Part shown: piece after piece, positions 19,485 to 59,276 of the stretch
Numbering within the stretch: the first letter of the stretch is position 1
Layout: every line of letters starts with the position of its first letter
Position numbers and translations under genes: made by a program
Notes under the pieces: generated by a model
What the model saw: the letters and a program-made list of their open reading frames with translations, nothing else
What the model was told of the DNA's origin: nothing
Databases searched by the model: none
DNA from: Mya arenaria
Taxonomy: Eukaryota; Mollusca; Bivalvia; Myida; Myidae
Direction of reading: 5' to 3'
DNA length: 64,000 bases
NCBI RefSeq assembly: GCF_026914265.1
Contig: NC_069129.1
Span: 15,487,571-15,551,570, forward strand

Positions 19485-20640
19485 CTTTGGACCCTTTTTC
19501 CTTCAATGTCAGTAATTTTGGCAGGTATTTCATCCTAGCACGTTATATGGCTCTCAGGAAAACGACATATATTCTGACAAGGCCCTAACCTGGGTACATT
19601 AGGTATTTAAACAACCTATACACACGGAATGTAATGGGTGTTATTCTGTACACGGCCTTGACCTGGGTACATCATGAACTTAAAGAACCTCTAAACAGAG
19701 AAATTAAAGGGGTGTAATTTTGTAAAAGGCCCCGACCTTGGTACATCAGGTACTTAATCAACCTGTGAACAGTGAAGATATTTGATGTAAAAAAGAGGAG
19801 AGGTAAACCTGACGAACAACTGTTGATATTGCCTAAATAATCCATATACACCAGCGGCGTTAAACCAAACTAGCTATTTGTTTCCCAATGTCAATATCAA
19901 ATATATTATAATGATGTTTATCAAACACTTATTTCATTAAACAAATAATCAGAGAGCAATTCCTTTCTATTCTTAGTAAGCGTTACGCTCAAAACCAACC
20001 CTTGATAGGAAAGTGGCTGTGAGCTGACAATAGCATATATGAAACCTCACCTTTTATAGTAAAGCGTTTGTGAAGTTTTCAATGAAATATATGAAACCTC
20101 ATTATGTATAGGCAAGTGGCTGTGAGGTAAACACTGACATATATACGGAACATAAACTTTCCTTGGCAAGTTAATGTAAGGTGAAAAATTAGAGACATAA
20201 AACGTCACCTTTTCTAGAAAAGCAGCTCTGATGTGAATATTAGCCAATACTTAACTCTACCATTTCTAGGCAAGCAGCTGTGATGTGAACAAAAAACAAT
20301 ACTTAACTCTACCACTTCTAAGCAAGCAGCTGTGATGTGAACAATAGCCAATACTAAACTTTACCATTTCTAAGCAAGCAGCTGTGATGTGAACAATAAA
20401 GGATATAGCTGGGCAGTAAACAAACAAATCAATGAAACCTCACCATTTCTAGGCAAGTGACTGAAGGTTGAACAATGTTCTTTTCGAGGAGGATACCACA
20501 CATTCTACAATAGAATGAAGAAATTTATTGAATGAACAGTTTAGAACCAATCTACATCTTATCGAAACCGATTGATGGGGCCTACTTGATGTCACCCGCT
20601 TAATGAAATGGTCAAAATACAGCGATTATATTCGATTTAG
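19485..20640 (-). pseudogene. Decayed partial copy of the Tudor/CS gene (exon at 31.4 kb and exon at 34.8 kb)
   Basis: 19,485-19,625 aligns along the plus strand with the exon at 31,411-31,542: AGCTGCAATA, then CAGGAAAACGACATATATTC versus CAGGAACGAGACGATCTTTT, then CAAGGCC and CTGGGTACAT. The acceptor-side end of that exon is repeated three times at 19,573-19,800 with a ~73-bp period. 20,425-20,560 matches intronic sequence at 34,512-34,645 (CCTCACCATTTCTAGGCAAG, CACATTCTACAATAGAATGA). Near 20,593 GTCACCCGCTTAATGAAATG resembles the donor end of the exon at 34,825. The order is collinear with the gene. All parts are too degraded to encode protein. Confidence 0.5.
20226..20400. repeat. Short tandem repeat, ~55-bp units
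   Basis: Units of the form AAGCAGCTGTGATGTGAACA followed by CAATACTTAACTCTACCA-like sequence recur about four times, with older diverged units upstream from 19,990. Confidence 0.7.
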
Positions 20641-27012: not shown

Positions 27013-30000
27013 CTGTAATTGGAGAGACTTTTCATTAATTAGATGTATGTCTGGAGAGAAAAAAAATCTTACGTATTCCATCCATCAGCGTTGATTTTTA
27101 TGTAAATTGACGAAACAAATTATATTTAGGGCTAAAATACTAATCGTACACCAGAGCGAAAATGCTTTCCGTATTTACTTTGATGAATGAGAATGTTCAA
27201 ACCAATGGGAATTATTTAATTTTAATAAAACATTTATATGGCGTAATAAAACTAAAGCACTGGGAGAATCGCCTAAATTTGTTTGTTGCTGTTTTTCCTG
27301 ATGCACAAGTTGCAAAACTCGACATTAATTAGACCAAGAGTTATGTTTCTGGCAATATGTAAACCTTGCTTCATTTAAACATCCTTGAACAGTTTGTGAT
27401 TCATTGTAAAGGTGACGATAACATGACTATCACAATACCTCAACTTAATTCCTTCTAAAATGGTTTTTGTCTTTGAAAACAGTTCAGCTAAAAATCAAAC
27501 TAATTGTTGGTTCCATATATGTTCATATAACATACAATACTACAAGGGCAAAGCTGATTTGCATTAGCCAAAATAACAATAGATGGATTTCTTCCAAAGA
27601 AAAGGCTTTTGTTATATATGTAAGAAATATTAGAAAATAACAGCACACTAATGCAACTGAACAACAGTGTTTTACTTGAAAGAAGGAAGGGTCTCTGATC
27701 ATCTTTCTCTTCTGAGTCGGAACTGTCCAGAATATGCTCGCAATCGGCCACCACATTCCCATGCTGAAGCGAATACAAATACATACATACATACATATTA
27801 TTGTTTGCATTAGGGTGGTATCAGTTTTATTTCATGGAGAAGTAATTTGTTGATAGGAAGCTCAGCTAAATCTCAAATGAAATTGGTATCTCTATGAAAC
27901 TAACCATTTACTAAACACATGTATGCAGGAGTAAAATAGTGGTTTAAACATTTGTTAATAAACTTTCATGGAAATATATGATTTTTCGACATTTGAGTCA
28001 CTTGCACACACTTAAAGTTTATGTATAAATTCCTCTAAGCGTATGTTTTCAATATTAATTAATAGCAGATGATATTGAAACAATTCAAACTAATCCTAAA
28101 TAATGTAATCACGGCACAAATCTGAGAAGCAACAATCTTTCAATTCAATCATAAGATTATTTCATCCAGTCAGATAAAACGCAAAATATATTTCAACCTA
28201 TTAAGCATGATCATGTCACTCAAAATAAAGTTTTGTCTTAATGAACATTAGAATGAAATTAATGCTATCTTTAATGGTTTCCAGGTTACACCAAAACATA
28301 AGTTTGGCTTTGGGCTATAAACATCCGTTTTCAAATCTTCTTGAAAAAAAAATCAAGCTTTAATTTATATAAATCCCTTAAAGCGTTGTGTTCCAAGGAA
28401 GGGGCATGGATTTCCAAAATAAATTCTACGAACCTTCACAGTGACAGCAGAAGTCATATTCAGTATTGACAAAAAAGCAAAAACTTCTTTCAAAAATGTT
28501 TAACCCTTGTATCACACTAACCTTGATCTTGTCATGAAGAGGTCGACTCCACATGCCCTTTTCCTGTTTCTTGAGTGACACAAGGACCTCCCGTTGTTTT
28601 ACATGCCACGTACACTTTTCAACACACACTCGGTCATACAGCCGGTAGGTGAACCCGTAGTTGACACCCCTGGATAGGGCCCTGTCAGGGAAATGGAAGT
28701 GGAAACACTCTTAGTTACATAGTTGATAGTTAAAGCTGTAGTTGACGCCACTGGATGTGGCTTTGTCAGTGAAATAGAAGTTATATAGTCGGAAGGTAGA
28801 GATTTACAAGCAAAAAAGTTATAGAAACGACCTTAACACACCTGAATGAGATCGTATCCTCAGTGAAGGTGACAAGATCATGGGCTGCAGGGTTGACATC
28901 ACAAACCTTTATCACCAACAGCATAACAAAGGAGTTCTGATTCCAGCGGACCTCTGGAGCAACCAAACTGAAAAACAAGTTGGTATCAATTTCATGCAAC
29001 AAAACATTATTTCATTTTAACATTTTAACCTTATCCCATCCTCCAAAACTCTCTTCTTTTAAGTTATACACCCCTATTTACCAACACCCCTTGCTTATTA
29101 TATCAAGCAGTTCAAGAATTTACTATAAAATTTAAGTCTTAATTGTTTGTGATTTTTAAGGTTACTTAATTAATAAAACCTAAAAATCAATAAAGATTAA
29201 AAGTAAAAACAAAATAAGTAGTTATTAAGAATATCAGGTAACTCTAAGTAATTTTGCGTTACATAAAAACTTTTAAAGGTTAAAACTGAAAACAAAGTTG
29301 ATAGTCATAAAGAATAGTGGAGCCTTTACCAGAAGTCAAACAAGAAAAGCAATACCTGTCTGACATGGGACCCATATGTTGCATTCCTGGTTTCAAGAGA
29401 AGCCCTCTGATCGGCTCAGAAGGGACCTTGAAGTCAAGGGAAGTCTTAAGGTCTTTACAAAGCTGTTTTGTTGCAGGAGGCATCTCTAGGTCTAAGATTC
29501 TGTAAAATACACACATATTCAAAGGCTTTTAAAGCTTAAAATGTTGATTTGTGACTGGTGGCAGATCCTCTGAAAAACAACAACACCAACAACAACATTT
29601 GAAATCAAGGTAAGGCTTCTTTATGGCTGGTGGTAACTCTTGGTATAAGAGCATTTGAAATATACTCTTTAAAGACATTAAAAGTCGATGGAAGTATGTG
29701 AGCCCCTAAATAGCTGCTTTGTGGCTGGTTGTAGCTCCATGTCTAAGATCATGTACAAAATACTCCCGTATTTGAAATGAAGGGAAGTATAAGAGGCCGA
29801 TACCAAACTGCTTGTAGCTTGTGGTAGATCATAGTCGGTCAACAAACATTTTAAGTCAATGGAAGTATGCCAACCCATACATAGGTGCTGTGTGATATAG
29901 GGCAGGCCTTCATCTGAGATCAGTGCAAACATGAGGGTTGCAATCATGTGGTGCTCTTTAAGGAGGTTCTTGCGTTAACACAAGGCGTACTACCCTTACC

Positions 30001-33000
30001 ATATGGCAGTGATTAAGTGTGCCTTATGAGGAAGGCCATGTGTGTTTACATTATTTGTGTTACCCGTACCTCCTGAGAATATATCTAGTGATCATGTAGA
30101 GCTCAATGAGGAGGGTCTAGGAATCATGTCAGATGTGTTTACTTGACCTGTTGAGAGTTGTGACCATGTGATGCTCTATAAAGAATGTCTTGTATTTAAA
30201 CCAGGTGTGTTACATTGATCTGTTGAGAATGGTGATTATGTGTTGCTCTAGGAGGGATGTCTTGTGTTCCCACTAGGTGTTGTATCTTGATCTGTTGAGA
30301 CTTATTATATTGTGTTCTTTAAGGAATGTCTTGTGTTTACAGCATGTGTGTTATCCTTACCTGTTGAGAATGGTTATCATGTGGTGCTCTATGAGGAAGG
30401 TCTTGTGTTTCCGACGGTTTGAGGCAAAGTGGTCACATTGCTGTACACAAAACGCAATACACTGAAATTAAATTAATAAAATTTTATTTCAGTCTTTAAT
30501 TCAATAAAGGTTTATGTTTCCTTAAAGCAAAATGTTTGTGCTGGTAGGATATTCCACAAGAGCACCTTGTAGTAAACGCCAAAGCGTGTCTGTTTTTTTC
30601 TTTTCCAGTCTAAGAAGGGCCATGACCAGAAAATCATTGAAGCCTAAGTTATGTGTCTTGCTATGTATGTGGGCATTGTCACCGAAAACATGCATAACAA
30701 GAATCTTTTGAATACCTAAAGCAGTTCTAAATTATGACCAAAGTTAATGATTTGCACATGTTAATCTCTTACTTCAGCCTAGTCTATGACCTTGACCTTT
30801 TTCTTTGAAAAACAGACAAGCTTAAAACCTTTGATTAAACCTGTGTTATTTCTGTTTTAAGATATTTTAATAGATACTTAGAATATTGGCATATATATGA
30901 AAAACATTCTAGTATTATGTGTTAAATAAAGGTGATGCATAATTACCAGATCATCATCATATATAGTCTGACATAATATCAAAGTTTGATAATTTAATCC
31001 TTAGGTTTCTCACAATAAACATTGCTACATGTATGGAACACCTACCTTAGGACAATCAGTTTTCTGGAGATTCTTAACAATGGCTTCCATTAATGATTCT
31101 TTCTTGAAATCATCATGACCACTATAATATTTTACAAAAATAAAGTTGTAAGTTGAAGTACAATTCTTCACAGTAGGCATATACATCAATATCAAGTCTC
31201 ATTTACATATATCAAGTCTCATTTACATAACATTTGTTTTTCATTACACACAGTCTGCCTTATAAAATAAAAGGTTTAAATCTGTGTGATTATAGAGTTT
31301 CATAATAAAAAGCATCATTGTACTAAAACTTTAAAAAAGAAACTATTGTTTCATTAGTTGCCCATAAGTTTAATTAATTTCCTAAAGAAGAACAAGAATA
31401 GTTTGCTAACCTATCATGTTGACTAAGAGCTGCAATAAGAGACAGAACTCCTTCAGAAACCGAGTGATCTGTAGCCTTTGACAGGAACGAGACGATCTTT
31501 TGAACAAGGCCATGTCCTGGGTACATCAGGTACTTAAACAGTCTATGAATGTAAAATTTCATTATGTTCCAGTTAATTGAATCAACAAAAACTAAAACAT
31601 CAACACTAACAGTAATTTGTGTATTTCAAGGCGGCACATGTACAAACGTTTCAAGCAAGAACTCCTGCAAAATATTTTCAATCATGTACTGACCAATAAT
31701 TAAGCACGATTAAGTAAGCTTACACAAAACAGCAAGGATAGCATTGGATATGGAGCCCACCAACTGTTGTTAAAGAAAGGTGTTATTTAACTCTTTGAAA
31801 ATATAATCATGTCTTAATCTAAAAGCAATGGACTTTACCCGTCTGATCCTGAGGTCAGAGAAGCAAACGCCTGGCACACAGCTCCCTGCACCTGCAAATA
31901 TAAGGCTTCATATATTAGAACATTAGATGTGTGCATGTTGATGACATATAAAACAAACGGAAATATGAGACTTACAGCGATCTAGTTTAATTATTTTGCC
32001 ATTTTGCTAGTGCCATTTTTTCAACAAGCAGAATGGTGGGTTCCTCTAGCAATTATTTAAAGGTTGTTTTACTTCCAGTAGTTTGACAAATCAATAATTT
32101 GATATATTGTTGCATTATGTACATTATCATTTGAATACAGCGACAAGCCTCTACACGCAGTCACGTTATTTTTTTTTATAAACTACCTTAAAGAAGTTTT
32201 TAAAGAGAAAAGGACAGTTTGAGCAAATACGCCAATTTACTTCACATTCGCAAAAATATTCGAGTGCCAGGAATTTCTGCTCGCATTTTTTTATATTCTA
32301 CTTGCGTTTTGAAATTAGCAACCGTAAAATTCGATCCCCGACTTGTATGTAACAAGCGTGCACAAGTTGATATCAAATAAAGATGAAAATATGCGACTCA
32401 CATGGTACAATAATGCAAAGGTTTGTGACAAATAATGAATATAGGAGACTAATAAAATTAACTAGACATTTTGAACCTCATACAATGTAATGAATGTTGT
32501 GCTTGTTGTGCCAAGTAAAGCCCGTAATTTTGATATAATATGTTATATGTTTGCTCCAGTATTTAACTCGTTGTACAGCAACCATATTCGGTGAAAACAA
32601 TGTAAACCTCAAATGACAAGAGCAACTAATATCATAATGCTAGCTTTTTAAATTAAAAAAATCAATTCTACTACTTTTAACTAGTGTTTGGATTGAATGT
32701 ATCTAAAACAGCTTCCCATATGGCACAAAACAAGACAATTGGTTGACCAATAATTAACAATTTTGTTTAAAGTTTTGATTGTTTATAGACCCTTGTTAGC
32801 ACATCTAATGATAATGCTTCTATATTTTCAAACCTGCTGACACATGGTGGATTCCAGTAGTTCAAATAGAACATCAGTTAAGTCCTGACCTCTGAAGGCT
32901 TCCTGCAGTCTGAAGCAAAAAATAAACAAAAAATGTTATGTTAACACATGTATGCTGAAACAGATTAAACATATAGGCTGAAGTAGAAAAGGTTCACTGG

Positions 33001-36000
33001 CTTCCAACCTAGGTGACCCGGGTAAAAATCCCGTCCTGGTCACATTTGAATTTGGTATGTGGTCATAAAGCCCGACAGGTGGGTTTTTTCGGAACTCCGG
33101 TCACAGAGACGCAGAGAAATGAAATTCTGGAAACTTCTAGAGACCTATCATGCACAAAATTTCGAATTTTGTCCACAACCAACTTACATTGATAATTAGA
33201 TATTTGCACATGAAAAAACTAAACCGACCCTTTCAATTTAATAAATATGATAATATATAACATCATTATAGGCAGAAAACACAATGTCGTGTAGAAAGGC
33301 GTGAAAAACATGAATTTGAAATAAGTATCACAGATGATACTTTTCACCTAAAAATTACACAAGTTCTAGGTTTCATATATTACCTGACTGAGATATTAGC
33401 AGCCTGGGTGATAAAGTCTGCAGCCTGGCGCTGGTAAATTGAAGAAGAATTCTGGAAACAAACAACAGCATAGTGATTAGTCATTGCATTTTTTAAAATC
33501 AAATTCTATACTTTTTCAAAAAATGAATTTGTACAATAGTATACATGTAGTTCTGTGGACACATCAAATTAATCTTTTCTTTACAGATTTTCAAGGGGAA
33601 AATGGGTGAATGAGCTAAAATTATAATTCCATTTCTATTTCAAAGATAAACGAAGTGGCAAAAGCGATTTTGATGAAATTAAAAAATGCATTCTGAAGTT
33701 GTATATACATATTACCATTACATTTGTAATGAATAACACATTTTGCTTTGATGTGTTCAAGTTTTGTGAGCATATTGTCATTATTTATACAGGTTTAGCA
33801 TGAAATCAAATCAATTGTAATGAAACGAGTATCGAATACAATCGAAAATTCCTGATGTGTTCATTTTAACAAGGGATTGTATTTAACATATTTCACAAAA
33901 CTTCAATAATCTGTCTCTATAGTGTAGTGGGTCCGGTCTTAACTACAATTATCGAGCATCCTGCTTCGATGCATTCTGTTTTTCAAACCTTTTTTGGTAT
34001 GGTTCGTTATAAACAAATTTACTTTTTTTGTGAAGTATTATGATATTAATATATTTTAATAAAATCTTCAATATAACAGGTTATTGAATCTTAAGCTGGA
34101 TAACAATTATTTAATATGCTTTTACATGGATAACATGCTAAGATAACTTACTTCATGTGGTGTGCATCATTTTGCAATTTTGATGTGCAATTATTTTCAT
34201 GAAGTATATGTTTTTGTGCTATTTTTTAATAAACAGACAAAGGTTATAGAAATTTACTTACTGTTGCATAAAGCATGACAATAGCATATAAAGAATGTAT
34301 TCCTAAATTATATTATGAACTTTCGATTATTGTCCGATAGAAAATTGAAATACTTGGTCCGATTAGATTTCGCTTTTCGATAGGAAATGGAGTCCGATTT
34401 TCAAACATTACAAATCGCCATAGCGGTAGCTTAACATGAAATTTGAAATTGAAAGTACATTTTCTCATGGTACTATTTTGCTGTAGAGTAAGGTGATAAA
34501 CAAACAAAAATAATGAAACCTCACCATTTCTAGGCAAGAAGTTGAAAGTTGAACAATGTTCTCTTCCAAAAGGATGTCACACATTCTACAATAGAATGAA
34601 GATATTGATTGAACAGTCTAGAAACAATCTGACACTTATTTCTAAATAATTCCAGGAGACAAGATATATCTTTGGAAAAACTACAATGCACTTTCCAACT
34701 GCTTAAAAAATTATATTGTACGCATTCATAAGTGCATGTTCTCCACTAACAGGCACAATAGCAAGTACGATTCATACGTTGTCTTATGTACTCTGTATGC
34801 AATCAACAATGGATTACCTGTCACCCGCTTTGACATAACACAGTAGACACTCAAAGATGGTTTTGTGGATTTCCGGCTGTGTTACCCTGCCCACCATCTT
34901 TACCAAGCTCACAAGTCCTTCTTTTGCAACTGACTCCTGAGTTGTGCTTAAACTGAAATACACATGATGTACATAGGTATTTATGAAAGATAATCTACCT
35001 CATTGTCTACTTTATTGATTGGATCAACTAACTCTGCAGCTGACTTGGAAACAATGTCACAAAATATGTATTTCATTTCATAAAGGTATGGCCAAGTCTT
35101 TGTAAAACAACGCCATTTCAAAATTGATGCTGCCAACAGGGCAACCAGATACATGTACCTCAAAATATTATCTTCAATAAAACAGATATGCAAAAGAACT
35201 GCCTATATAGGACGTTTTATTATTATCACTATATATGTTCACCAAAATTTCGCAAATTGGTTGCTGCACCCGACCTCTTGACTCGAAATCAATAACGGTC
35301 TTCTACTGATCATGACAAATGAATATATCCAAATTCAAATCTTTTTAACAAGCTATTCAACAAACTAACGTTAGAGATCAAACACAAACGTTTGACACCA
35401 CAGACAAAGGCTGTTATCCAGACTTAACAGGTGAAACGAAAATTGGAGAACTTACCTTCCAAGACATTCTGAAAGGATGTTGTAAAGCTCTTCGGCAACT
35501 TTGGTAGCCTTACATAGGTCCTTAAACACACATTTATAGACATACATTAACAAAACTTACTACACTCATATACTTTTCTTACCTGCATCATATTGCATAT
35601 AACTAATTACAGTCGCCAGATGTGATTTAAAATCTTTAAAAAGAAATACTAGCTTTCTTGGGATTCAACAAGTAATGTTTGGTAGAAGACATATAATAAA
35701 GTAAAAGCTATGAAAGTATATGCAGTACTTCAACTCTATTCTTGAAATCACCCTAAATAACCAGTTTTACCTTTTCCCAATACACAGCAGAACAGAGGCC
35801 AGGAATCTTGTTGAGTCTTGAAGGGAACACCCTCTTTCCCGGGGTGGACCGGGGTAACAAGGGCTGTAGACAAAAAAGAATGTAAACTTTAATAGGAAAC
35901 AAGTGGTTGTGTGTATCACTCAAATTGTAAATTTGAACAAAAACATTGTTGAGCAATGTAAATTGACAATTTGGCACAAATTTACCTACAGTTCAGAATA

Positions 36001-39000
36001 CATCCTATTTTTTCAGCCAATTAAATTGCATATAGACAATCATTAAGTACTAGCTAAATCATTAAGAATGTCAACTTAAGCGGGTGTTGAACGTTGTAAT
36101 TAGTAATTGCAAAAAGGTTAGAAAAAAAGAGAAGTTTGCTTTAAAAGTTTCTCAAAATAGAGCAAATTTTTATTATATGTTCCAAGGATGAATACAAAGG
36201 CTTCCACAACCAGCTTTTAAAAACATGAGAAATTAAGCAATGATATTAACAAAAAAAGGTTGTTTCCTCTTAAAACATGCCTTCGCAATGTGATTATGTA
36301 TTTGTACTTCTAATGGTGATTTTGTACCTTGGAGGTAAGCTTTCTTACCAAATTTTTGTACAACAAGACATATGCCTCTCACTAAATATTTTGTATTTTG
36401 TACAGCCTGGTGCTTGTTTGGCAAGCTGTCTCCACACAAGTTCCTGACCAAGATCCCTCTGTGTTGTTCTAAGCTCTACCACAAACTTCTGGCGTCCAGC
36501 GTATTTGGTCTCTTCTTTGGCCTGTACTACCGTGGCAACAAGCGGTCGAAGGTCCTTTTCATTCACAAAGTGTGACATGTCCCATAATGCATCTCCTGCC
36601 CAAATTTCCCAGGTGTCTTCTGTTGTATAAGTAGTAGTTGATTTATGAAATGTAAGCGAACCACTTCCATGAAAACTTCAAAAATACACTTGGAAATATG
36701 CGCTCACTAGGTACAGTTAAATGCAAGCTGTGTATGTATACATGTTTTAAGCATTCGTCCCCTTTTGTACATTTTAAGTTCAATAATTTTAAAAGGTATA
36801 AATAAAACAAGGAAAGTTTTTGCACAGTATGTTTCATTCAATAATCAAACAAAACACTTATCAAAATGTAAACAACTAATATGGGTTCAAATAGTTTGCA
36901 ATACAAACTCGTTTTGAAACTCATTTGGGTGTAAAAAAATGCCAAAAATTGTGCAAAAGTTCATCCCAACAAATAAACTCAGAAAGAGGAATGTTTTCTA
37001 TTGTCAAATGAAATGGACACATAATAAAAAGACATATTTAACACATAACATACCTATTTTCTCTATGTTGGCCAGCTGGCATTCAATTGCCTGTAATGGG
37101 AGCTCAAAGAATTTGTCAACTGGAAATTCGCGCACCTTATCCCGTGGGACAAAGTCAAGGTCGCCGTAGTCAGGGAAAAATATCTCTACTGTGTCATCCT
37201 TCACTGTCTGTATATGGCCCCGGTACCATCTGATACAGAATGATAAAACGTGTAAGTTTTCTAACATATTTCAATAAAACTTTCATCAGTGACAATTGAT
37301 ATAGAAAAGACATGTTCTATTTTCTAATAATTTTCAGAAATTTTCCATATAACTGGCCTAATTGCAATCTGATATAGGTAAGAAGAAAATCATGTAGCTT
37401 TTCATGTGACGTTCATAATATTACCATATGAATGGCCACATTGCCATCTGATATAGGTAAGAAGAAACACATGTAGTTGTTCAAAGGACTTTCAGACTAT
37501 TTCCACATAACTGGCCTTATTGCCATCTGATATAGGTAATAAGAAACAGATGTAGTTGTTCAAAGGACTTTCAGAATATTTCCACATAAATGGCCTTATT
37601 GCTATCTGATATAGGTAAGAAGAAAATCATGTAACTTTTCATGTGACTTTCACAATATTTCCATATAACTGCCATCATTGCCATCTGATATAGGTACGAC
37701 ATATGTAGTTCATCACATATGCCTTTCAGAACATATCTATTTAAATGGCCTCATTGCCATCTATTTAGGTAAGACATATGCAGTTCCTATTAATATGACT
37801 TTGAGAACATATGATTTGAATGGCCTCATTACCATCTGATATAGGTTCGACATATGTAGTTCATCACATATGCCTTTCAGAACATATCTATTTAAATGGC
37901 CTCATTGCCATCTATTTAGGTAAGACCTATGCAGTTCTTAATATGACTTTGAGAACATATGATTTGAATGGCCTTATTACCATCTGATATAGGTTAGACA
38001 TATGCAGTTCATAATATGCCATTCAGAACATATCTATTTACTTGAAAATTTCCATATAACTAGCCTCATTGTCATCTGATATAGATAAGACAAAACATAT
38101 GCAGATTCACATACGTCTTACATGCCTAATATAGTGATATATCTCTACATGCTTACAGTAGTGGCCTTTAATACTTACAATAGTGACCTACCTTTCCATG
38201 CTAAAATAGTGACCTACCTCTCCATCCTAACAATTATGACTACCTCTACATGCTTACAATAGAGGCCTACCACTCCATGTTAACAACTGTGGCCTATCTC
38301 TCCATGATACTAACAATAGTGGCCTACCTGTCCATGCTTACAATAGTGACCTACCTCTCCATGCTTACAAAAGTGATCTACCTCCAAATGTTTTCAATTG
38401 TATTCTACCTGTTCATGCATACAATATTAGCCTACCAGTTTATGCTTGCAATCATGACAAACCCCTTAATGCTAACAAAAGTGACCTACCTCTCCAGGTG
38501 ACAAAAGTGACCTACATCTCATGCTTATTAAAGTGGCCTAACTCTCCATGCTTACAATAGTGACCTACTTCTCCATGCTAACAATAGTGACCTACATCTC
38601 GATGCTTACAAGTTTGATCTACCTACCACTCCATGCTGACAAAAGTGACTTACTTCTTCATCCTAACAATAGTGACCTACCTCTCCATGCTGACAATAGT
38701 GACCTACCTCTCCATGCTTACAATAGTGACCTACCTCTCCATGCTAACAATAGAGACCTAATTCTTCATCCTAACAATAGTGACCTACCTCTCCATGCTA
38801 ACAATAGTGACCTACCTCTCCATGCTTACAATAGTGACCTACCTCTCCATGCTAACAATAGTGACCTACCTCTCCATCCTAACAATAGTGATATACCTCT
38901 CCATGCTTACAATAGTGACCTACTTCTCCATGCTAACAATAGTGACCTAACTCTCCATGCTAACAATAGAGACCTAATTCTTCATCCTAACAATAGTGAC

Positions 39001-41523
39001 CTTACTCTCCATGCTGACAATAGTGACCTACCTCTCCATGCTTACAATAGTGACCTACCTCTCCATGCTAACAATAGAGACCTAATTCTTCATCCTAACA
39101 ATAGTGACCTACCTCTCCATGCTAACAATAGTGACCTACCTCTCCATTATTACAATAGTGACCTTCCTCTCCATGCTAACAATAGTGACCTACCTCTCCA
39201 TGCTAACAATAGTGACCTACCTCTCCATGCTAACAATAGTGACCTACCTCTCCATGCTAACAATAGTGACCTAACTCTCCATGCTAATAATAGAGACATA
39301 ATTCTTCATCCTAACAATAGTGACCTAACTCTCCATGCTTACAATAGTGACCTACCTCTCCATGCTTACAATAGTGACCTACCTCTCCATCCTAACAATT
39401 GTGATCTACCTCACCATGCCTACAATAGTGAACTACCTCACCATGCTTACAATGACCTACAGCTCCATGCTTACAATTGTGGCCTACCTATACAAGCTTA
39501 CAATAGTGACCTACCTCTCCATCCTTACAATGACCTCTTCATGCTTACACTGGTGACCTTCCTCTTCATGCTTACACTGGTGACCTACCCCTTCATGCTT
39601 ACAATGGTGACCTACCTCTCCTTCTTTACAATAGTGACATACCTCTTCATCCTTACAATAGTGGCCTACCACTCAAAGCTTACAATAGTGACCTACCTTT
39701 TCATGCTTACAATGATGCTTACAATGGTGATCTACCTCTCCATGCTGAAAATAGTGACCTACCACTCCATGCTTACAATGGTGGCCTACCTCTCCATGCT
39801 TACAATAGTGGCCCACCTCTCCATGTTGAAAATAGTGACCTACCACTCCATGCTTACAATAGTGACCTACCACTCCATGCGTACAATAGTGGCCTACCTC
39901 TCCATGCTTACAATAGTGGCCTACCTCTCCATGCTTACAATAGTGGCCTACCTCTCCATGCTTACAATGGTAACCTACCTCTCCATGCTTCCAATAATGA
40001 CCTACCTCTCCATGCTTCCAATAATGACCTACCTCTCCATGCTTCCAATGGTAACCTACCTCTCCATGCTTACAATAGTGACATACCTCTAACTGCTTAT
40101 AATGTTGGTGTACCTTTTCATGTTAACAATAGGGACTTACCTACTGGTAACAATCGTGACCTACCTCTCATCGAAGGAGGCATACTGGGCTAGACAGTAT
40201 TTTCCAACTTGTGGTTCCTGTAGGACATCATCCTCCTCCTGTCTCTCAACATACGCCCCTATCTCGACCATAAGACTTTCCAGCCTGGAATACAATACAA
40301 TGTCAAGAGCTGGGACTCATTTTTAATAAAATACACCAATGCGACAGCTCCGCATTGAAGACGGATGTTTTATTTAAAGATGCAATTTTTCAAACCTAAG
40401 ATTTGAGCTAGTGACCTAGTTTTTTTAACAAAGAAGACCCATATTAATACTTATCACAGATATACAACACATATAAATAACCTGATCAGATTTCAACAGA
40501 AACTATTCAATTTGTGTATGGAAAAAATCACAAAAGGGCAAATTATAAAGATCCTGAAAATACAATAATTGACTTTGATGCTGACGTGTCAATAGTGTTT
40601 GTGCTAGGGTGAAAGCTTGCGTGCGTGTGTGTTTATATGTATGTAAACTTATTAAATGTAATGAAAATTGGATATTTTTTTGAATATCCTGCAGAGAAAA
40701 AACTGCATTTATTTCTTGAGATTTGTGATTAGTGACCTAGTTTTTGACCTGGCACACACACACAAACACACACACACACACACACACGTACACACACAAA
40801 GACAACAATGATAGTATGTGTTCAACTATATTTACAAACGTTCAAGACTACATGTACAGAAGTATTCTTACAAAGTTTAAGAACACTTGGATAAAAACAA
40901 TTGAATTCATGACAGGTGAAAATATTTCCGAAGATTTTTGTGACCTTATTTTTGACGTGATTTGACCTATATTCACAAATGTTCATTACAGCATGTTAAC
41001 AAGTAATTTGAGAAATTTATAACAATTGAACATGACTGTTGACTTTATGACATTGAATTAAAACTTATAACGCAGAAATGTTAACACCCGCCCGCCCGCA
41101 CAATCACGATACAAAAGCATTTCTCTTAATTTTAAACTTAAATTGGCATTTTTGATACATATTTCTATCAATGCATTATCAGCATCAAAGAGAAATCACA
41201 TGTTATTGCAGGAATAAGGACACGACACAGATGTGCTTCACATTTACATTCAATGACTTTTACTTCAATGACTTTTACTTTTGAGTCTCAATGACTTGTT
41301 TTGTCTGCATTTATTTCATTAGTCAATGAAAAACAGTAATATAATAGTGGAGTTAAATAAGAAGAAATCCATTAATTGTGCTTACTCTTCCAATTTCTCA
41401 TGTCTCTGTATATATAGATGATCTGGGGTGTGGACAGATGAGATCACTACCTTATGGGAGGGCCTGCAGGCTGGTAACACATCAGTCAACAGCTCCTGGC
41501 TCATCCTGTGTATGGAAAATGAG

Positions 41524-43160: not shown

Positions 43161-46100
43161 TTGTGTTTTATCAATATTATTATATATTTACATTCTCCCA
43201 GTTCTTTGTGTAGATTACACTTGATTTTCATATTGTACAACACACAAAGAGTTACGACGTCATTGTTTATTTCAATATTGCACTCCGATTGGATAAGCAT
43301 GACATCATTTAACCAATGATATATGACGTTACAAAAATCAGGTTTTCTTTAATACAAACATATGTTGTCAGTTACACTTTTTAAAGAACAAATACTCAGA
43401 GCATACGGCTTATTTCTAGTGGCAATGAAAATATTTTGTACATGTAAAAATAAGTATTGATCACATTTATTCTTCTTATGCTGTATAAACGCAGTAATGC
43501 AAGCGAGCAAATGACCAAAAAGCGCTGGTGCGTTCATACAGCATAAACTCAAGAAAAAATGCGATCAATCATTAATTAATAATAATAGTTAATGTATTTA
43601 TTGAAACACATTAAACATGGCAGTTTGAGCCAACAGGGTTTGACTCTACTTGACTTTTGAACACATACATGCAATGAAATGTAAACATACACATACTAAA
43701 AAGTTAATGTATGTTAATATTAAAAGAAGCACACATCAATAATTATATAAAACAATATAAGTTTATTATACATTTTGGTTTTTAAGATGGAGCAACAAGC
43801 GGAACAATTGCTGTCTCTACGTTTGTCCCGTGTTTTGGAGGACATCGGGGTGAACAGGTACATGATCGCCAGGAGGAGGAGGACGTTTCTGATGATGGAG
43901 ACAAACATGAAAATCAAAAATACATTAAGCAATGCTAAATTGTTAAGCAGCGCTAAATGTTATCATTTTGGCAGCCAGAGTGAAGGAACTACAACCTTTG
44001 GCATGCAATCAGACTTAGATACATTGTTATGCTCTGATTTCCCTGTCATATTGGACTGGGATGAGTGGCAGCAGGGAAAGCCTCAACTCCTTGTTGTCAA
44101 GACAGACCAGTTCCCACCCCAGCACTGTTGGCTGCAATGGCTGAGACCTGACATTCCATTACCAGAGACACAGGTCATACTTCCCAGTGAGGTGATAGAC
44201 AATGAAGGCAGAGTGCTGCATACAAACTATCAGGTGGAATTACATGAGACTATCAGACAACTTAGCTCAAAAGGCGAAGTAGTGCAACATGGGCCATCTA
44301 GAAGCTGGAATGAAAATGATTTTGTAATTGCCCATCATTGTTGCAGTCTCCCAAACGATTGTCAGTTCCTGTTCCACAGACCCCGGCCTGGATACTGGCC
44401 CAGAGCTGACACACTTGCCAGGGCCAGACAAGTTGGAGTGTTTCTGGTGCCACAGGGATATTCCGAGTGTCCTTCAAGACCAACCAGATGTGGCTCTACT
44501 GCACTTCATGTCACCCCAAATAACCTATACTATCCACAGTCAAGATGGGAATGGAGGTTTTCTACATCAATGATGGAAAGATTACTGATGTTTGACATGA
44601 ACACTGTGCAGTACAAGACATATGTATTCATTAAAATATTGAGAAAAACTTTCTTAAAGCCTGTTGTTGGAGACCGTCTCAGTACATTTCACATGAAGAC
44701 TGCAATGCTGTTCACAATAGAGACCTATCCACCAGAGATATGGAGAGAAGAAAACCTTGTACAGTGTGTGATCTACTGTCTGACCACACTTCGCAGGTGG
44801 CTTAAGTTGAAACACTGCCCACACTACACTATAGCTAGAGTGAATCTTTTAACAGGGAAACTATTCAAACATGAACTCCCAAGATTGTCTGAAGAGCTTT
44901 CCTCCTTAATGGAATCCAATATGCCCTACATTCCACAGATAGACATGGATTTACTTGGAGACAAGATGCTGGCTATAAGCAGAAGCCTTGTTCCTGGAAG
45001 TAACGAAAGGAAGAAAAACAATCAACGGATCCTATTTAATCTGAATGGAGCCTACAAAGAAACAAGAGTAATATGGCATACACCTGTCATAACTTACTTT
45101 TCTATGTACACTTGGGATGAGATCAATGCACTCATTATACAACATCTTCACACTTTACAACAAATATCCCAAAATGGGACAGCCTTGGAACAAGAAACAG
45201 CTACAATGAACATGCCTCTGTTGTATAGTCTATTTGCCTCCCTCCTAGCCTCAATGTCTATCCACATAGGACAATCAATTACACAGGACATTCTCCACCT
45301 ATACCACCTGTCCTTTGACTCTGACCTTCTGTCCAGTAGACTAAAGTTTGCCTCCATGTTGTACTGCAATGGGCAGTATGATGCAGCAGCAAACTGTCTG
45401 GTCTACTGTGAGGGACTGCTGGGGCCAGAAGTGTGGCAATCATGCAGATGTAAAGGCAGAATTCCCCCCATACCCAGCAGTAAGTTCCTAGACAAGACTG
45501 AACAGTCCTCTAATAAAGACATACTACAGAAGTTTACTGCCATGTGTGTATGTTTCATGCCTCAAGAAATGTGCTGTGTACCAGAACACCTGGTGTATGA
45601 AATGTTCAGAACTGTAGGAGATGAAGACAGGAAACAGAGACGCCCAGCAAGTTTTTATGAGTGGATGGACCTAGTCATGATTGACTGTATCCCTTTCCTC
45701 TACTATCTGCAGTACCTCACATACAGGCAACTGAACATGCGTTATAGGAAACATGCAGCCCAAGAAAAGCTTCACCACTATATACATACGGACAGTCAAG
45801 GCCATGGTCACATAGACACAGCATTAAACATGCTGGGCAACTGCTATGAACTTGAAAACAGACTGGATGTTGCATGGAAATGCTACTCAAAATCTCAAGA
45901 AATCTACCCAAGAAATAATGCAGCCAATTGGCATGTGGCCAGAATAGTGCATCAGCTAGTCGACAGCTCATACATGCCATATCCCCCGGCGGGGGAAAAA
46001 ATCCCCCGGAATTTCGATCCATCCCCCGGTCTCCCAGCGGGAGATAAAAATCCCCTGATATTTAAAATTATTTTTATTTTATTTATTGTTCATTATATTT

Positions 46101-49100
46101 GTTTAATTTTTTATTTTATTTTTTTTTTTAGAACTTTTACATGAGGCAATAATGACAAAGTAAGTGAAACCACAGTATGTGGGTGAAACTGAATGTAAAG
46201 AAACAACTCCACAAGGGTGAAATGCCAAAAGGAAACTTTTACAACAAGTGATCAATTAATTTGTAGTAATTATCAAAGGCAAAGAAATATTACTATTTTG
46301 GAAGGAAGAAATTAATAATTTTTATTCTATTCTCTTATTGTCTGAAAGTCATCAAGCTGATAGAATTAAGCACAATTTTTTAAAAGACTTTGGAGGAAGG
46401 TAAATTTAATTTATTTGTCTCGAAAACATATTTTTCTAATGACATATTTTGTTCTGCAAGTGCATTACAGTATGACATGTGACAGTGAGTGTATCATAAG
46501 AATATGATAAATCATGACATAAAATAATTCTGTATAATGAAAAAGTTAAGAGGTTTTCAAAGCAAACTATATGTGAATACATTTTTTCGTACTTGCGTCT
46601 AAAAATACTTTAAAATTTCGCCAACTTAGACCTGCTAAAAAAATCCCCCTGAATACAACCAAAATCCCCCTGAATTTTCAGCCTTTTGAACAAATCCCCC
46701 TGAATGGTCTCCAGAAAATATGGCATGTATGACAGCTTAATACTACAATATTGATGTTTATAACATAACTTATGGCGCAGGAGTGATATAACCCCATGCA
46801 ATTATTTTTATATATAACTAGTGTAATAACTATGCAAATTAGGTAACTGCAACACAGAAAAATGTATTCCTACGTGCTGTCAAAAAATGTAAACAAACAT
46901 AAGAAACAATGTTTCAAAAGAGAAATCATGTCGGTGTCAGCAAACCAAATTCCACAAAGAAACCAATGGTGAAGAAGGCTGGGCTTAAATCAAACAAACA
47001 CCTCCCTGATCACAGCGCTAGAGATGATAGCAATGTTCATGGGAAACAGATTATTTATGCAAACATCGGTACAAAAAACATTGCATCTGTAAACAACTAT
47101 GGCCACATAAATCCAAATCAACACAAGGAAATGTCAAGCATTCTGTAATCCAGTCAAAATATCCGTCTACTTTATTGCAAAATGCTCATTTTAGGCAGTT
47201 CACCAGCAATGCTCAAGTTCACACATTGTCACATTCACTGATTCCACATCAAATCCCACTTTTTCTGGTGGATTTTACAACATTTATGGTGCTCCAATTA
47301 ACTGAGGTAATGTCCTTGTGCACATCCATCAAAATCCATGCTGTAATCGACCACTCAGCCTATGAGTCAGCGTCACAGTAGTTTTCAATAGTGCGAATTT
47401 GACTGTGACGCTGACTCATGTTCTTTTTAAACTTAACCGCCGAATGACATGTACACAATCACGTGATTACTAATGACGTCTCCCAGTTATGACATTGCTC
47501 TTTTGATCGTTTTGCTTGATTTAAATGGACTGAAATATGTATTTTTGTTCTTTTTAAGTAAATCCTTTGAGACCTGATTTAATTTTTTTATTTTTCATAA
47601 ATAGTTTCTATGTCGGGCTATTTTCTTTCCTGCGGATGAAGCATTCTAATAACACACAATGTAAATACTTCGCACTATGACAAGAGAAGTGTATTGAAGA
47701 AACTTTGACCTAGATTTCTACCATAAATGAGTTATGTTATAAATAGAATCTTAAATTCTTGTTTATTTTGTATCAAATTCATTAAACTCGTCATTTAAAA
47801 CGATAAAAACTCAGCAAAGCCTCGTTTAATAAATTGGATATAAAATAAACACTCATTTGAGATCCTCTGTATAACATTGAAGCATTCAAGTATTGAAGAT
47901 ATCCTGACATGTGAATATGCAACATATTAAATTGAAAACAAGAGCTGTCACAGTATGTGACAAATGCCCCCGAATGTGACATTGACCTACGAACAAGGTC
48001 AGTACATGAAAAGTTGATCTTGCCTTTACGTGTCAAATACATATGGCAAGTTATTTCAAATTGCCTCTGAACATAAAAAAATACCACCCATACTTGACAA
48101 CCTACACTGTTATGTCCTTATATTCAGAATTCCCTTGTGAATAAACACTTAGTGTACCTTTCACCTTAGAGGTAGGGACATGGGTCTTGCACACGACACG
48201 CCGTCTTCGTATGTGGAACACATGTAGCAAGTTATTTTAAAATCTGTCCATACAAGAGAAAGTTACAGCCCGGACACGACAACCTATACCCTATGTCCTT
48301 GTATGCAGCACTCCATTGTGAATAAACACTAAGTGTGACCTTGACCTTTGAGGTAGGGACACGGGTCTTGCACGCGACACGTCGTCTTGGTATGTGGAAC
48401 ACATGTGGCAAGTTAATTAAAAATATGTCCATACAAGGGAAATTTACAGCCCGGACACGACAACCTATACTCTATGTCCTTATATGCAGCACTCCATTGT
48501 GAATAAACACTATGTGTGACCTTGACCTTTGAGGCAGGGACACGGGTCTTGCACGCGACACGTCGTCTTGGTATGTGGAACACATGTGGCAAGTTATTTT
48601 AAAATCTGTCCATACAAGAGAAAGTTACAGCCCGGACACGACAACCTATACTCTATGTCCTTATATGCAGCACTCCATTGGGAATAAACACTAAGTTTGA
48701 CCTTGACCTTTAAGGTAGGGACACAGGTCTTGCACGCAACACGTCGTCTTGGTATGTGGAACACATGTTGCAAGTTATTTTAAAATCTGTCCATACAAGA
48801 GAAAGTAACAGCCCGGACACGACAACCTATACTCTATGTCCTTATATGCAGCACTCAATTGTGAATAAACACTAAGTGTGACCTTGACCTTTAAGGTAGG
48901 GACACGGGTCTTGCACGCGACACGTCGTCTTGGTATGTGGAACACATGTGGCAAGTTAATTTAAAATCTGTCCATACAAGAGAAAGTTACAGCCCGGACA
49001 CGACAACCTATACTCTATGTCCTTATATGCAGCACTCCATTGTGAATAAACACTATGTGTGACCTTGACCTTTGAGGTAGGGACACGGGTCTTGCACGCG

Positions 49101-52100
49101 ACACGTCGTCTTGGTATGTGGAACACATTTGGCAAGTTATTTTAAAATCTGTCCATACAAGAGAAAGTTACAGCCCGGACACGACAACCTATACTCTATG
49201 TCCTTATATGCAGCACTCCATTGTAAATAAACACTAAGTGTGACCTTGACCTTTGAGGAAGGGACACAGGTCTTGCACGCGACACGTCGTCTTGGTATGT
49301 GGAACACATATGGCAAGTTATTTTAAAATCTGTCCATACAAGAGAAAGTTACAGCCCGGACACGACAACCTATACTCTTTGTCCTTATATGAAGCACTCC
49401 ATTGTGAATAAACACTATGTGTGACCTTGACCTTTGAGGTAGGGACACGGGTCTTGCACGCGACACGTCGTCTTGGTATGTGGAACACATGTGGCAAGTT
49501 ATTTGAAAATATGTCCATACAAGAGAAAGTTACAGCCCGCACAAGACAACCTATACTCTATGTCCTTATATGCAGCACTCCATTGTGATTATCACTAAGT
49601 GTGACCTTGACCTTTGAGGTAGGGACACGGATCTTGCACGCGACACGTCGTCTTGGTATGTGGAACACATGTGGCAAGTTATTTTAAAATCTGTCCATAC
49701 AAGAGAAAGTTACAGCCCGGACACGACAACCTATACTCTATGTCCTTATATGCAGCATTCCATTGTGAATAAACACTAAGTGTGACCTTGACCTTTGAGG
49801 TAGGGACACGAGTCTTACACGCCACACGTCATCTTGGTATGTGGAACACATGTGGCAAGTTATTTTAAAATCTGTCCTGTCGTGTCCGGGCTGTAGCTTT
49901 CCCTTGTATGGATAGATTTTAAAATAACTTGCCAAATGTGTTCCATATAACAAGATGACGTGTCGCAGGCAAGACCCGTGTCCCTACTTCATAGGTCAAG
50001 GTCACACGTAGTGCTTATTCACAATGGAGTGCTGCATATAAGGACATAGAGTATAGGTTGTCGTGTCCAGGCTGTAACTTTCCCTTGTATGGACAGTTTT
50101 TAAAATAACTTGCCACATGTGTTCCACATACCAAGACGACGTGTGGCGTGCAAGTCTCGTGTCCCTATCTCAAAGGTCAAGGTCACACTTAGTGTTTATT
50201 AACAATGGAGTGCTGCATATAAGGACATAGACAATAGGTTGTCGTGTCCGGGCTGTAACTTTCTCTTGTATGGACAGATTTTAAATAACTTGCCACATGT
50301 GTTCCACATACCAAGACGACGTGTCGCGTGCAAGACCCGTGTCCCTACCTCAAAGGTCAAGGTCACACTTAGTGTTTATTCACCATAGAGTGCTGCATTT
50401 AAGCATAGAGTATAGGTGGTCGTGTCCGGGCTGTAACTTTCCCTTGTATGGACAGATTTTAAAATAACTTGCCACATGTGTTCCACATACCAAGACGACG
50501 TGTCGCGTGCAAGAACCGTGTCCCTACTTCAAAGGTCAAGGTCACACTTAGTGTTTATTCACAATAGAGTGCTGCATAAAGGACATAGAGTATAGGTTGT
50601 CGTGTCCGGGCTGTAACTTTTTCTTGAATGGTCAGATTTTAAAATAACTTGCCACATGTGTTCCACATACCAAGACGACGTGTCCTGTGCAAGACCCGTG
50701 TCCCTACCTCAAAGGTCAAGGTCACACTTAGTGTTTATTCACCATAGAGTGCTGCACATAAGCATAGAGTATAGGTTGTCGTGTCCGGGCTGTAACTTTC
50801 CCTTGTATGGACAGATTTTAAAATAACTTGCCACATGTGTTCCACATACCAAGACGACGTGTCGCGTGCAAGAACCGTGTCCCTACCTCAAAGGTCAAGG
50901 TCACACTTAGTGTTTATTCACAATGGAGTGCTGCATATAAGGACATAGAGTATAGGTTGTCGTGTCCGGGCTGTAACTTTCTCTTGAATGATCAGATTTT
51001 AAAATAACTTGCCACATGTGTTCCACATACCAAGACGACATGTTGCCTGCAAGACCCGTGTCCCTACCTCAAAGGTCAAGGTCACACTTAGTGTTTATTC
51101 ACAATTGAGTGCTGCATATAAGGACATAGAGTATAGGTTGTCGTGTCCGGGCTGTAGCTTTCCCTTGTATGGACAGATTTTAAAATAACTTGCCAAATGT
51201 GTTCCATATAACAAGATGACGTGTCGCAGGCAAGAGCCGTGTCCCTACTTCAAAGGTCAAGGTCACACGTAGTGTTTATTCACAATGGAGTGCTGCATAT
51301 AAGGACATAGAGTATAGGTTGTCGTGTCCAGGCTGTAACTTTCCCTTGTATGGACAGATTTTAAAATAACTTGCCAAATGTGTTCCACATACCAAGACGA
51401 CGTGTGGCGTGCAAGTCTCGTGTCCCTATCTTAAAGGTCAAGGTCACACTTAGTGTTTATTTACAATGCAGTGCTGCATATAAGGACATAGAGAATAGGT
51501 TGTCGTGTCCGGGCTGTAACTTTCTCTTGAATGATCAGATTTTAAAATAACTTGCCACATGTGTTCCACATACCAAGACGACATGTTGCCTGCAAGACCC
51601 GTGTCCCTACCTCAAAGGTCAAGGTCACACTTAGTGTTTTTTCATAATAGAGTGCTGCATATAAGGACATAGAGTATAGGTTGTCGTGTCCGGGCTGTAA
51701 CTTTCTCTTGAATGGTCAGATTTTAAAATAACTTGCCACATGTGTTCCACATACCAAGACGACGTGTCGCGTGCAAGACCCGTGTCCCTACCTCAAAGGT
51801 CAAGGTCACACTTAGTGTTTATTCACAATGGAGTGCTGCATATAAGGACATAGAGTATAGGTTGTTGTGTCCGGGCTGTAACTTTCCCTTGTATGGACAG
51901 ATTTTAAAATAACTTGCCAAATGTGTTCCACATACCAAGACGACGTGTCGCGTGCAAGACCCGTGTCCCTACCTCAAAGGTCAAGGTCACACATAGTGTT
52001 TATTCACAATGGAGTGCTGCATATAAGGACATAGAGTATAGGTTGTCGTGTCCGGGCTGTAACTTTCCCTTGTATGGACAGATTTTAAAATAACTTGCCA

Positions 52101-55100
52101 CATGTGTTCCACATACCAAGACGACGTGTCGCGTGCAAGACCCGTGTCCCTACCTCAAAGGTCAAGGTCACACGTAGTGTTTATTCACCATAGAGTGCTA
52201 CACATAAGCATAGAGTATAGGTTGTCGTGTCCGGGCTGTAACTTTCCCTTGTATGGACAGATTTTAAAATAACTTGCCACATGTGTTCCACATACCAAGA
52301 CGACGTGTCGCGTGCAAGAACCGTGTCCCTACCTCAAACGTCAAGGTCACACTTAGTGTTTATTCACAATGGAGTGCTGCATATAAGGACATAGAGTATA
52401 GGTTGTCGTGTCCGGGCTGTAACTTTCTCTTGAATGATCAGATTTTAAAATAACTTGCCACATGTGTTCCACATACCAAGACGACATGTTGCCTGCAAGA
52501 CCCGTGTCCCTACCTCAAAGGTCAAGGTCACACTTAGTGTTTATTCACAATTGAGTGCTGCATATAAGGACATAGAGTATAGGTTGTCGTGTCCAGGCTG
52601 TAGCTTTCCTTTGTATGGACAGATTTTAAAATAACTTGCCAAATGTGTTTCACATAACAAGATGACGTGTCGCAGGCAAGACCCGTGTCCCTACTTCAAA
52701 GGTCAAGGTCACACGTAGTGTTTATTCACAATGGAGTGCTGCATATAAGGACATAGAGTATAGGTTGTCGTGTCAAGGCTGTAACTTTCCCTTGTATGGA
52801 CAGATTTTAAAATAACTTGCCATAAGTGTTCCACATACCAAGACGACGTGTGGCGTGCAAGTCTCGTGTCCCTACTTCAAAGGTCAAGGTCACATTTAGT
52901 GTTTATTTACAATGGAGTGCTGCATATAAGGACATAGAGTATAGGTTGTCGTGTCCGGGCTGTAACTTTCTCTTGAATGGTCAGATTTTAAAATAACTTG
53001 CCACATGTGTTCCACATACCAAGACGACGTGTTGCGTGCAAGACCTGTGTCCCTACCTTAAAGGTCAAGGTCACACTTAGTGTTCATTCACAATGGAGTG
53101 CTGCATATAAGGACATAAAGTATAGGTTGTCGTGTCCGGGCTGTAACTTTCTCTTGTATGGACAGATTTTAAAATAACTTGCCACATGTGTTCCACATAC
53201 CAAGACGACGTGTTGCCTGCAAGACCCGTGTCCCTACCTCAAAGGTGAAGGTCACACGTAGTGTTTATTCACAATGGAGTGCTGTATATAAAGACATAGA
53301 GTATAGGTTGTCGTGTCCGGGCTGTAACTTTTTCTTGTATGGACAGATTTTAAAATAACTTGCCACATGTGTTCCACATACCAAGACGACGTGTCGCGTG
53401 CAAGACCCGTGTCCCTACCTCAAAGGTCAAGGTCACACTTAGTGTTTATTCACCATAGAGTGCTGCACATAAGCATAGAGTATAGGTTGTCGTGTCAGGG
53501 CTGTAACTTTCCCTTGTATGGACAGATTTTAAAATAACTTGCCACATGTGTTCCACATACCAAGACGACGTGTCGCGTGCAAGAACCGTGTCCCTACCTC
53601 AAAGGTCAAGGTCACACTTAGTGTTTATTCACAATGGAGTGCTGCATATAAGGACATAGAGTATAGGTTGTCGTGTCCTGGCTGTAACTTTCTCTTGAAT
53701 GGTCAGATTTTAAAATAACTTGCCACATGTGTTCCACATACCAAGACGACGTGTTGCGTGCAAGACCCGTGTCCCTACCTCAAAGGTCAAGGTCACACTT
53801 AGTGTTTATTCACAATTGAGTGCTGCATATAAGGACATAGAGTATAGGTTGTCGTGTCCGGGCTGTAGCTTTCCCTTGTATGGACAGATTTTAAAATAAC
53901 TTGCCAAATGTGTTCCACATACCAAGATGACGTGTCGCAGGCAAGACCCGTGTCCCTACTTCAAAGGTCAAGGTCACACGTAGTGTTTATTCACAATGGA
54001 GTGCTGCATATAAGGACATAGAGTATAGGTTGTCGTGTCCGGGCTGTAACTTTCCCTTGTATGGACAGATTTTAAAATAACTTGCCACATGTGTTCCACA
54101 TACCAAGACGACGTGTCGCGTGCAAGACCCGTGTCCCTACCTCAAAGGTCAAGGTCACACTTAGTGTTTATTCACCATAGAGTGCTGCACATAAGCATAG
54201 AGTATAGGTTGTCGTGTCTGAGCTGTAACTTTCCCTTGTATGGACAGATTTTAAAATAACTTGCCACATGTGTTCCACATACCAAGACGACGTGTCGCGT
54301 GCATAAACCGTGTCCCTACCTCAAAGGTCAAGGTCACACTTAGTGTTTATTCACAATGGAGTGCTGCATATTAGGACATAGAGTATAGGTTGTCGTGTCC
54401 GGGCTGTAACTTTCTCTTGAATGGTCAGATTTTAAAATAACTTGCCACATGTGTTCCACATACCAAGACGACGTGTTGCCTGCAAGACCCGTGTCCCTAC
54501 CTCAAAGGTCAAGGTCACACTTAGTGTTTATTCACAATTGAGTGCTGCATATAAGGACATAGAGTATAGGTTGTCGTGTCCGGGCGGTAGCTTTCCCTTG
54601 TATGGACAGATTTTAAAATAACTTGCCAAATGTGTTCCACATAACAAGATGTCGTGTCGCAGGCAAGACCTGTGTCCCTACTTCAAAGGTCAAGGTCACA
54701 CGTAGTGTTTATTCACAATGGAGTGCTGCATATAAGGACATAGAGAATAGGTTGTCGTGTCCAGGCTGTAACTTTCCCTTGTATGGACAGATTTTAAAAT
54801 AACTTGCCACATGTGTTCCACATACCAAGACGACGTGTTGTGTGCAAGACCTGTGTCCCTACCTCAAAGGTCAAGGTCACACTTAGTGTTTATTCACAAT
54901 GGAGTGCTGCATACAAGGACATAGGGTATAGGTTGTCGTGTCTGAGCTGTAACTTTCCCTTGTAAGGACAGATTTTAAAATAACTTGCTACATGTGTTCC
55001 ACATACGAAGACGTCGTGTCCTGTGCAAGACCCATGTCCCTACCTCTAAGGTGAAAGATACACTAAGTGTTTATTCACAAGGGAATTCTGAATATAAGGA

Positions 55101-59211: not shown

Positions 59212-59276
59212 CTGAAACAAGAGGCATACACAACTGTTTGAGCGCAAAGAGAAAAAAGACTTTCCTTGAATCAATT

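Follow-up and report, generated by a model that had tools for sequence, protein, structure and literature searches.

How an intron comes to be built from copies of its own two splice borders, and how one working pair of sites is chosen from among them, is the question raised by a Tudor-domain gene of the bivalve Mya arenaria. The gene lies on the minus strand of a 64,000-nucleotide stretch of contig NC_069129.1, positions 15,487,571 to 15,551,570 (C8:15487571-15551570; hereafter the window). Its intron 1, of 2,935 nt between exons E1 and E2, consists of a donor-border array abutting an acceptor-border array, and it is left with hardly any unique sequence because the two arrays meet at about position 38108. 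We consider it likely that these arrays are neutral minisatellites seeded on the splice borders and hemmed in by selection on the exons, with only the outermost sites in use.

Layout of intron 1 and likeness of its repeats to the real borders

A sequence-only reading of the window had proposed the two exons, their strand, an intron of about 2.9 kb and both arrays, all of which were confirmed. The elements are given below in the direction of transcription, a slash marking the splice junction.

40165..40284, minus strand: E1, the upstream Tudor exon, ending ...GAT GAG AG/ in phase 2
38109..40169, minus strand: donor-border array with the 27-bp unit GTAGGTCACTATTGTAAGCATGGAGAG, about 75 units, unit 1 being the real exon–intron border (5 exonic bases)
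37230..38108, minus strand: acceptor-border array, 11 copies of TATCAG/ATGG(C)AATGAGGCCAT... at a spacing of 66-92 bp, with the real acceptor last
37054..37229, minus strand: E2, the downstream Tudor exon, its first 16-24 bases or so being the exonic half of the acceptor unit

Wrap-around alignment divided the donor array into 75 units of 22-32 bases, somewhat more than the 70 or so copies first estimated, the unit being composed of 5 exonic and 22 intronic bases. The donor GT is retained in 58 of 72 aligned 27-column rows and GTAGGT in 37 of them, so that the description of the units as mostly keeping GAG/GTAGGT went too far; the donor 9-mer GAGGTAGGT occurs 26 times, the real one included. 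On the other side the acceptor-type borders number 12, made up of 11 copies and the real acceptor, at the 66-92 bp spacing, where about ten copies of 78 bp had been proposed. The acceptor unit contains roughly 24 exonic and 54 intronic bases, and the sequence separating the final donor unit from the first acceptor border corresponds to the upstream portion of this unit. The AG is retained in 11 of the 12 borders and ATCAG/ATGG in 6 (again counting the real one); the statement that most copies keep TATCAG/ATGG was therefore overstated. The spliced E1+E2(+E3) peptide is matched by Pfam TUDOR with an E value of 3.9e-18, and the E1–E2 junction (FDE-R/WYR, phase 2) falls within a single Tudor domain. 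Solved Tudor structures also align across this junction; on both counts the exon ends represent old coding sequence, and the positions of the splice sites are well supported.

The repeats are border-like copies, and their likeness to the real borders was compared with chance. A 24-base core of the donor unit has 50 matches in the window with at most three mismatches, against 0 in 100 shuffles, and the real donor agrees with the majority unit at all 5 bases on the exon side and at 15 of 17 on the intron side; on the exon side, ungapped similarity ends past these 5 bases (5 of the last 8 and 7 of the last 20 match). When a query of 30 exon and 30 intron bases was used to find the best single copy of each border, the scores stood at z 8.3 for the donor and z 4.6 for the acceptor relative to 100 dinucleotide shuffles of intron 1, none of which reached the observed score. 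The exonic 30 bases alone gave no signal in this best-single-copy search of intron 1 (z -1.7 for the donor and 0.1 for the acceptor). Exonic likeness at the intron-1 acceptor depends on an anchored test against a majority unit drawn by eye, in which the first 16 bases of E2, in register with the unit, match at 12 positions (0 of 20,000 permutations), the first 20 at 14 (p 5e-5), and the first 32 at 17 (p 0.00065). Chance similarity was ruled out by the shuffles, which never reached the observed border scores; a likeness no better than that of shuffled sequence had been named beforehand as what would refute the layout. Coding use of the arrays was also rejected, and the 516-aa plus-strand frame at 38542-40092 was read as a stop-free by-product of the 27-bp period.

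Recurrence in intron 12 and among the paralogs

The border-copy test covered the 12 introns between the 13 modelled exons of the minus strand. Border copies were found in two of them, intron 1 and intron 12, in each case at both ends; for independent donor and acceptor arrays, each present in two of 12 introns, the chance of sharing the same two introns is 1 in 66. In the other ten introns no border rose above its shuffle maximum, the closest approach coming from the intron-9 donor, whose exonic portion scored 22 against a maximum of 22 (z 3.3). The elements around intron 12 are as follows.

30361..30461, minus strand: E12, its last 50 bases or so lying within the intron-12 donor unit; its open frame joins E13 in phase 2
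29932..30360, minus strand: intron-12 donor-border array, five diverged copies of about 72 bp and a partial sixth
29500..29931, minus strand: intron-12 acceptor-border array, strongly diverged copies consisting mostly of the exon-13 start
29356..29499, minus strand: E13, with an open frame joined to that of E12 and conserved in paralogs

The donor border of intron 12 (30360-29500) reached z 18.9, and its exonic 30 bases alone z 11.7, the unit being composed of about 50 exonic and 22 intronic bases. The acceptor border reached z 8.0, with the exonic 30 bases alone scoring 26 against a shuffle maximum of 25. Five acceptor copies score at least 22 and three at least 34; an additional match of score 24 sits in the donor array, so the lower threshold is near noise. 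The GT is retained in three of the donor copies, and both readable acceptor copies are without AG. The intron-12 arrays look older than those of intron 1. Both of them are present in five of the six copies examined, window included, the sixth stretch being without the exons, and E12 is 97-100% identical over its full length in three paralogs. Two relics of the same kind lie farther along the window.

20027..20505, minus strand: an exon-7-like segment (20505-20417) followed by seven more donor-border copies of about 52 bp, some 14 kb from exon 7 (34525-34585)
19555..19769, minus strand: three copies of the exon-11 acceptor border, of about 74 bp, some 12 kb from exon 11 (31411-31542)

The genome search covered 1,216,080,610 bases in 18 contigs. 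Among the matches listed (of 373), all unit matches fall in C8 14.82-15.66 or 28.71-29.01 Mb, the two regions of the gene family, and the 27-bp unit lies only beside the E1 border; a dispersed or mobile minisatellite was rejected, the unit not being seen at unrelated sites among these matches. Eleven unit-bearing stretches add 12 E1 copies to that of the window, and in all 13 the array starts within 80 bases under a six-mismatch criterion. The E1 frame has stops or shifts in 5 of the 13 copies; besides the window copy, seven others keep it open, and their E1 is 95.8-100% identical. E2 has nine DNA matches in the genome including the window, all on C8 and 97-100% identical; every one of them has acceptor units, and seven have E1 with a donor array.

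Array size turns over among these paralogs and the edges are conserved. The donor arrays of the seven copies comprise 75, 74, 77, 74, 74, 119, and 57 units, with pairwise exon differences of 0-11 in 296 bases. Their first and last units are nearly identical and the core differs, runs of 8-14 identical units being common to the window and its closest copy only, and runs of five at most being shared with the other five. Other borders are repeated in diverged copies, namely the exon-11 acceptor border, with 18 and 23 repeats in the adjoining stretches L009 and L023 (C8:14.81-14.83 Mb; one copy in the overlap is counted twice) and eight in L020, which also carries exon-12 donor copies. The earlier proposal that both borders were amplified into the intron is supported because the exon halves are coding and conserved (FDER/WYR inside the Tudor domain), and because the pattern is seen again at intron 12 and at further borders of the paralogs.

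Several paralogous stretches differ in layout. In L017:8346-9855 (the same as L020:46-1555), an exon-3 match comes directly after the E1 donor array, exon 2 having no match in the interval. In L011 and L014, which hold the 14.89- and 15.60-Mb copies, the 27-bp donor array is interrupted by about 3 kb of other sequence. At L009:4058-4616 a block of the array is inverted relative to the normal block that it faces, and exons 4 and 5 are duplicated at L025:4885-7760 in the 15.440-Mb copy.

Regarding the gene model, E3-E15 were picked by eye from the sequence and an exon scan and were afterwards found to be conserved in paralogs. Exon 3 was doubtful as first drawn (to 36349); in five of the seven compared copies it has a GTAAG donor end, giving 230 or 229 nt. 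In the 15.65-Mb copy, the single open-frame copy read there, E11 and E12 join out of frame, and an exon may be missing between them. Introns 3 and 11 are uncertain because the exon-3 end and the E11–E12 join are unsettled. The 5′ end of the Tudor gene was not found in the window. Two downstream exons at 28522-28953 (minus strand) resemble a CS (p23-like) domain; only the second is matched by Pfam CS (2.4e-4), and the first is a tentative assignment. Elsewhere in the window, a single frame of 797 codons, matching Mab-21_C and TPR (43751-46144, plus strand), is directed away from the Tudor gene, and a 181-bp satellite occupies 48096-64000 (Tandem Repeats Finder rows of 9.8 and 77.9 copies), its frames suggesting more than one orientation change and an unrelated interruption near 55-57 kb. 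A frame at 1966-2418 (minus strand) looks like the beginning of a mariner/SETMAR-type transposase.

Working frames, decoy sites and the origin of the arrays

The frame stays open through E1-E9 (341 codons), with GT-AG introns, in four array-bearing copies, those at 15.440, 15.60, 14.89, and 15.65 Mb, their later exons being only partly covered. The donor arrays of these four comprise 74, 74, 77, and 119 units, and the border-array layout is also present in apparently intact copies. The ratio of non-synonymous to synonymous change (pN/pS) is 0.12-0.32 in five of the six pairs of open-frame copies, namely those with synonymous changes.

Under the neutral origin that we favour, short tandem duplications would have happened across the exon–intron border at each end of an intron that was short from the start or that lost its unique middle, and slippage or unequal exchange would then have enlarged both arrays until they came into contact. 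Because the exons are protected by selection, growth of the arrays would be confined to the intron. On either side the outermost copy would remain the working splice site, anchored at the slowly changing edge of its array, and the arrays themselves would be without function. Among the options raised by the sequence-only reading, neutral slippage seeded at splice sites is the one that fits best.

Several observations weigh against this origin. The 27-bp unit holds only 5 exonic bases, and the intron-1 donor array may have begun just inside the intron and reached the border later. The 11 stretches were chosen for holding the unit, which biases the association of E1 with the array, the unbiased set being the nine E2 copies; for two of these, at 28.709 and 29.003 Mb, a search of the 5.4-5.7 kb upstream found neither E1 nor a donor array. 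The sixth pair of open-frame copies shows 0 synonymous and 4 non-synonymous changes. In the window and 15.365-Mb copies, the frame of the gene model breaks after exon 3 (36392-35864 in the window), and the exon-3 donor is absent from both and present in the five others compared; given the missing donor and the frame break, the window copy is possibly damaged, and its intron 1 may lie within a damaged copy. Finally, under a human-type weight matrix the real donor of the window copy is equalled or surpassed by 32 decoy donors, and five decoy acceptors outscore the real acceptor, so that the choice must rest on something besides site strength.

Decoys in the window copy carry a stop-codon cost. 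A stop codon is added by each of the 49 decoy donors with a score of at least 6 and by each of the ten decoy acceptors tested (the eleventh is without AG, hence ten), and of 549 donor–acceptor pairs 548 are either closed or frame-shifted, the outermost being the sole pair that is open and in frame. Slippage between equivalent sites, which had been suggested earlier, is not borne out, as all 59 decoys tested bring an in-frame stop. It would be exon context, we infer, that picks the outer sites. Column identity across the nine donor positions is 0.880, compared with 0.885 for the unit's other 18 columns, and we conclude that the arrays are probably tolerated and not kept for their sites. Recursive splicing at the AG/GTAG units was rejected on their low acceptor scores (best 3.6, versus 6.6 for the real acceptor).

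A function for the decoys has to be weighed against this neutral origin. The arrays could bind U1 or U2 without being spliced and so slow or regulate the removal of intron 1, as one example by setting the level of the Tudor protein through stop-containing transcripts, an explanation that we regard as improbable. The high scores of the 32 decoy donors, the stops in 59 of 59 decoy products, and the persistence of the arrays in four open-frame copies are what a regulatory role would draw on. They are countered by a donor 9-mer conserved no better than the remainder of its unit, which also leaves the earlier suggestion of U1/U2 competition without support, by an array length that varies about twofold among near-identical copies, and by the loss of GT or AG in four of the seven readable copied borders of intron 12. 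Quite unlikely, in our judgement, is a Rogers-type birth of the introns, in which an exon segment bearing AGGT was duplicated in tandem and the arrays are what remains of that founding duplication. Such a birth expects one source segment, and donor and acceptor units show no similarity in either intron (five scores, reached by 300, 300, 299, 252, and 64 of 300 shuffles); moreover, the donor unit has 22 non-exonic bases in both introns. It would suit the mostly exonic units of intron 12, and a related route was proposed for the border repeats called mirages by the amphioxus globin authors (PMC3087553).

The 28.95-Mb copy (C8:28951500-28953900, L018) bears on whether spare copies could ever be used. 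Its outer E1 donor reads GA instead of GT, a single-base change that also abolishes the in-frame TAG; the next unit, TAG/GTAAGT, lies 24 nt on, in frame and stop-free, and would add KVTIVTNR. A splice-site buffer, in which spare copies rescue the gene after mutation of the outer site and the exon may lengthen in steps of one unit, could be read from this replacement of a lost donor at the price of eight residues. It is a single case, the first unit carries a stop in the seven other open-frame E1 copies, and the 28.95-Mb copy may itself be a pseudogene, since its exon 3 carries a 1-nt deletion; we therefore give the buffer very little probability. In a broader reading, tandem amplification in this genome would start preferentially at splice borders and could turn introns into two facing border arrays. 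The working site could then step inward by whole units, and intron repeats would become coding whenever one event removes both the outer site and its stop, a course open to the 28.95-Mb sequence with its in-frame gain of 24 nt or eight residues. We put this forward tentatively and think it rather unlikely as a whole.

Comparison with known border repeats

The Rogers model of intron gain by tandem duplication reportedly has its example in the potato RdRp gene. It has in common with the present case that splice signals are multiplied through tandem duplication. In contrast to what is seen here, its intron takes both the 5′ and the 3′ end from one exon segment; intron 1 was not made by one duplication, because its donor and acceptor units are unrelated. 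In human segmental duplications, variable internal tandem repeats are described at exon–intron boundaries (PMC2812944), which share with our case the expansion of border minisatellites in recently duplicated genes, with units of about 30 bp on average. Unlike the arrays described here, they alter exons or make new introns, have transcript support, and average 4 units (PMC2812944).

The closest relatives are the mirages of amphioxus, whose founding paper is said to be that of Canestro 2002 on Adh3. Mirages are minisatellite-like duplications of exon–intron borders (PMC3087553, PMC3902484), and the earlier statement that no intron class with this layout had been described was accordingly wrong. 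These papers report BflGb6 with 3 and 6 units (PMC3087553) and a PGBD5 case (PMC3902484), and in the published cases RT-PCR showed regular splicing to be undisturbed. On the same accounts, mirages and the present arrays have in common tandem units across a real exon–intron border inside a gene, many but not all of which keep AG or GT, a variable copy number, and cluster edges that escape homogenisation, observed here between paralogs and not haplotypes. The units also span the border here, with an exonic share of only 5 bases at the intron-1 donor.

The differences concern extent and setting. In the mirages so described, either 5′ or 3′ borders are affected, whereas here both borders of one intron are; the arrays occupy the whole intron, with about 75 units in the window and 57-119 in paralogs, compared with the 3 and 6 of BflGb6, and they recur in another intron of the gene and, in diverged paralogs, at further borders. 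What bears on regular splicing in our gene is the open frames and pN/pS of array-bearing copies, and the mirage cases found in the literature are all cephalochordate. In the open-licence literature searched, no published case of a two-sided, whole-intron, many-copy border array was found. In the window copy the splicing machinery would need to settle on one donor where 32 others score at least as high under the human-type matrix, and on one acceptor where five others score higher, only the outermost pair being in frame. The four open-frame copies, with their 74, 74, 77, and 119 units, form a natural dose series in which position and exon context are set against site strength. Judged from its sequence, the layout would belong with the mirages, as an extensive, two-sided example of this rare type of repeat, and it extends border minisatellites to arrays that fill an intron from both ends and persist in genes under selection.

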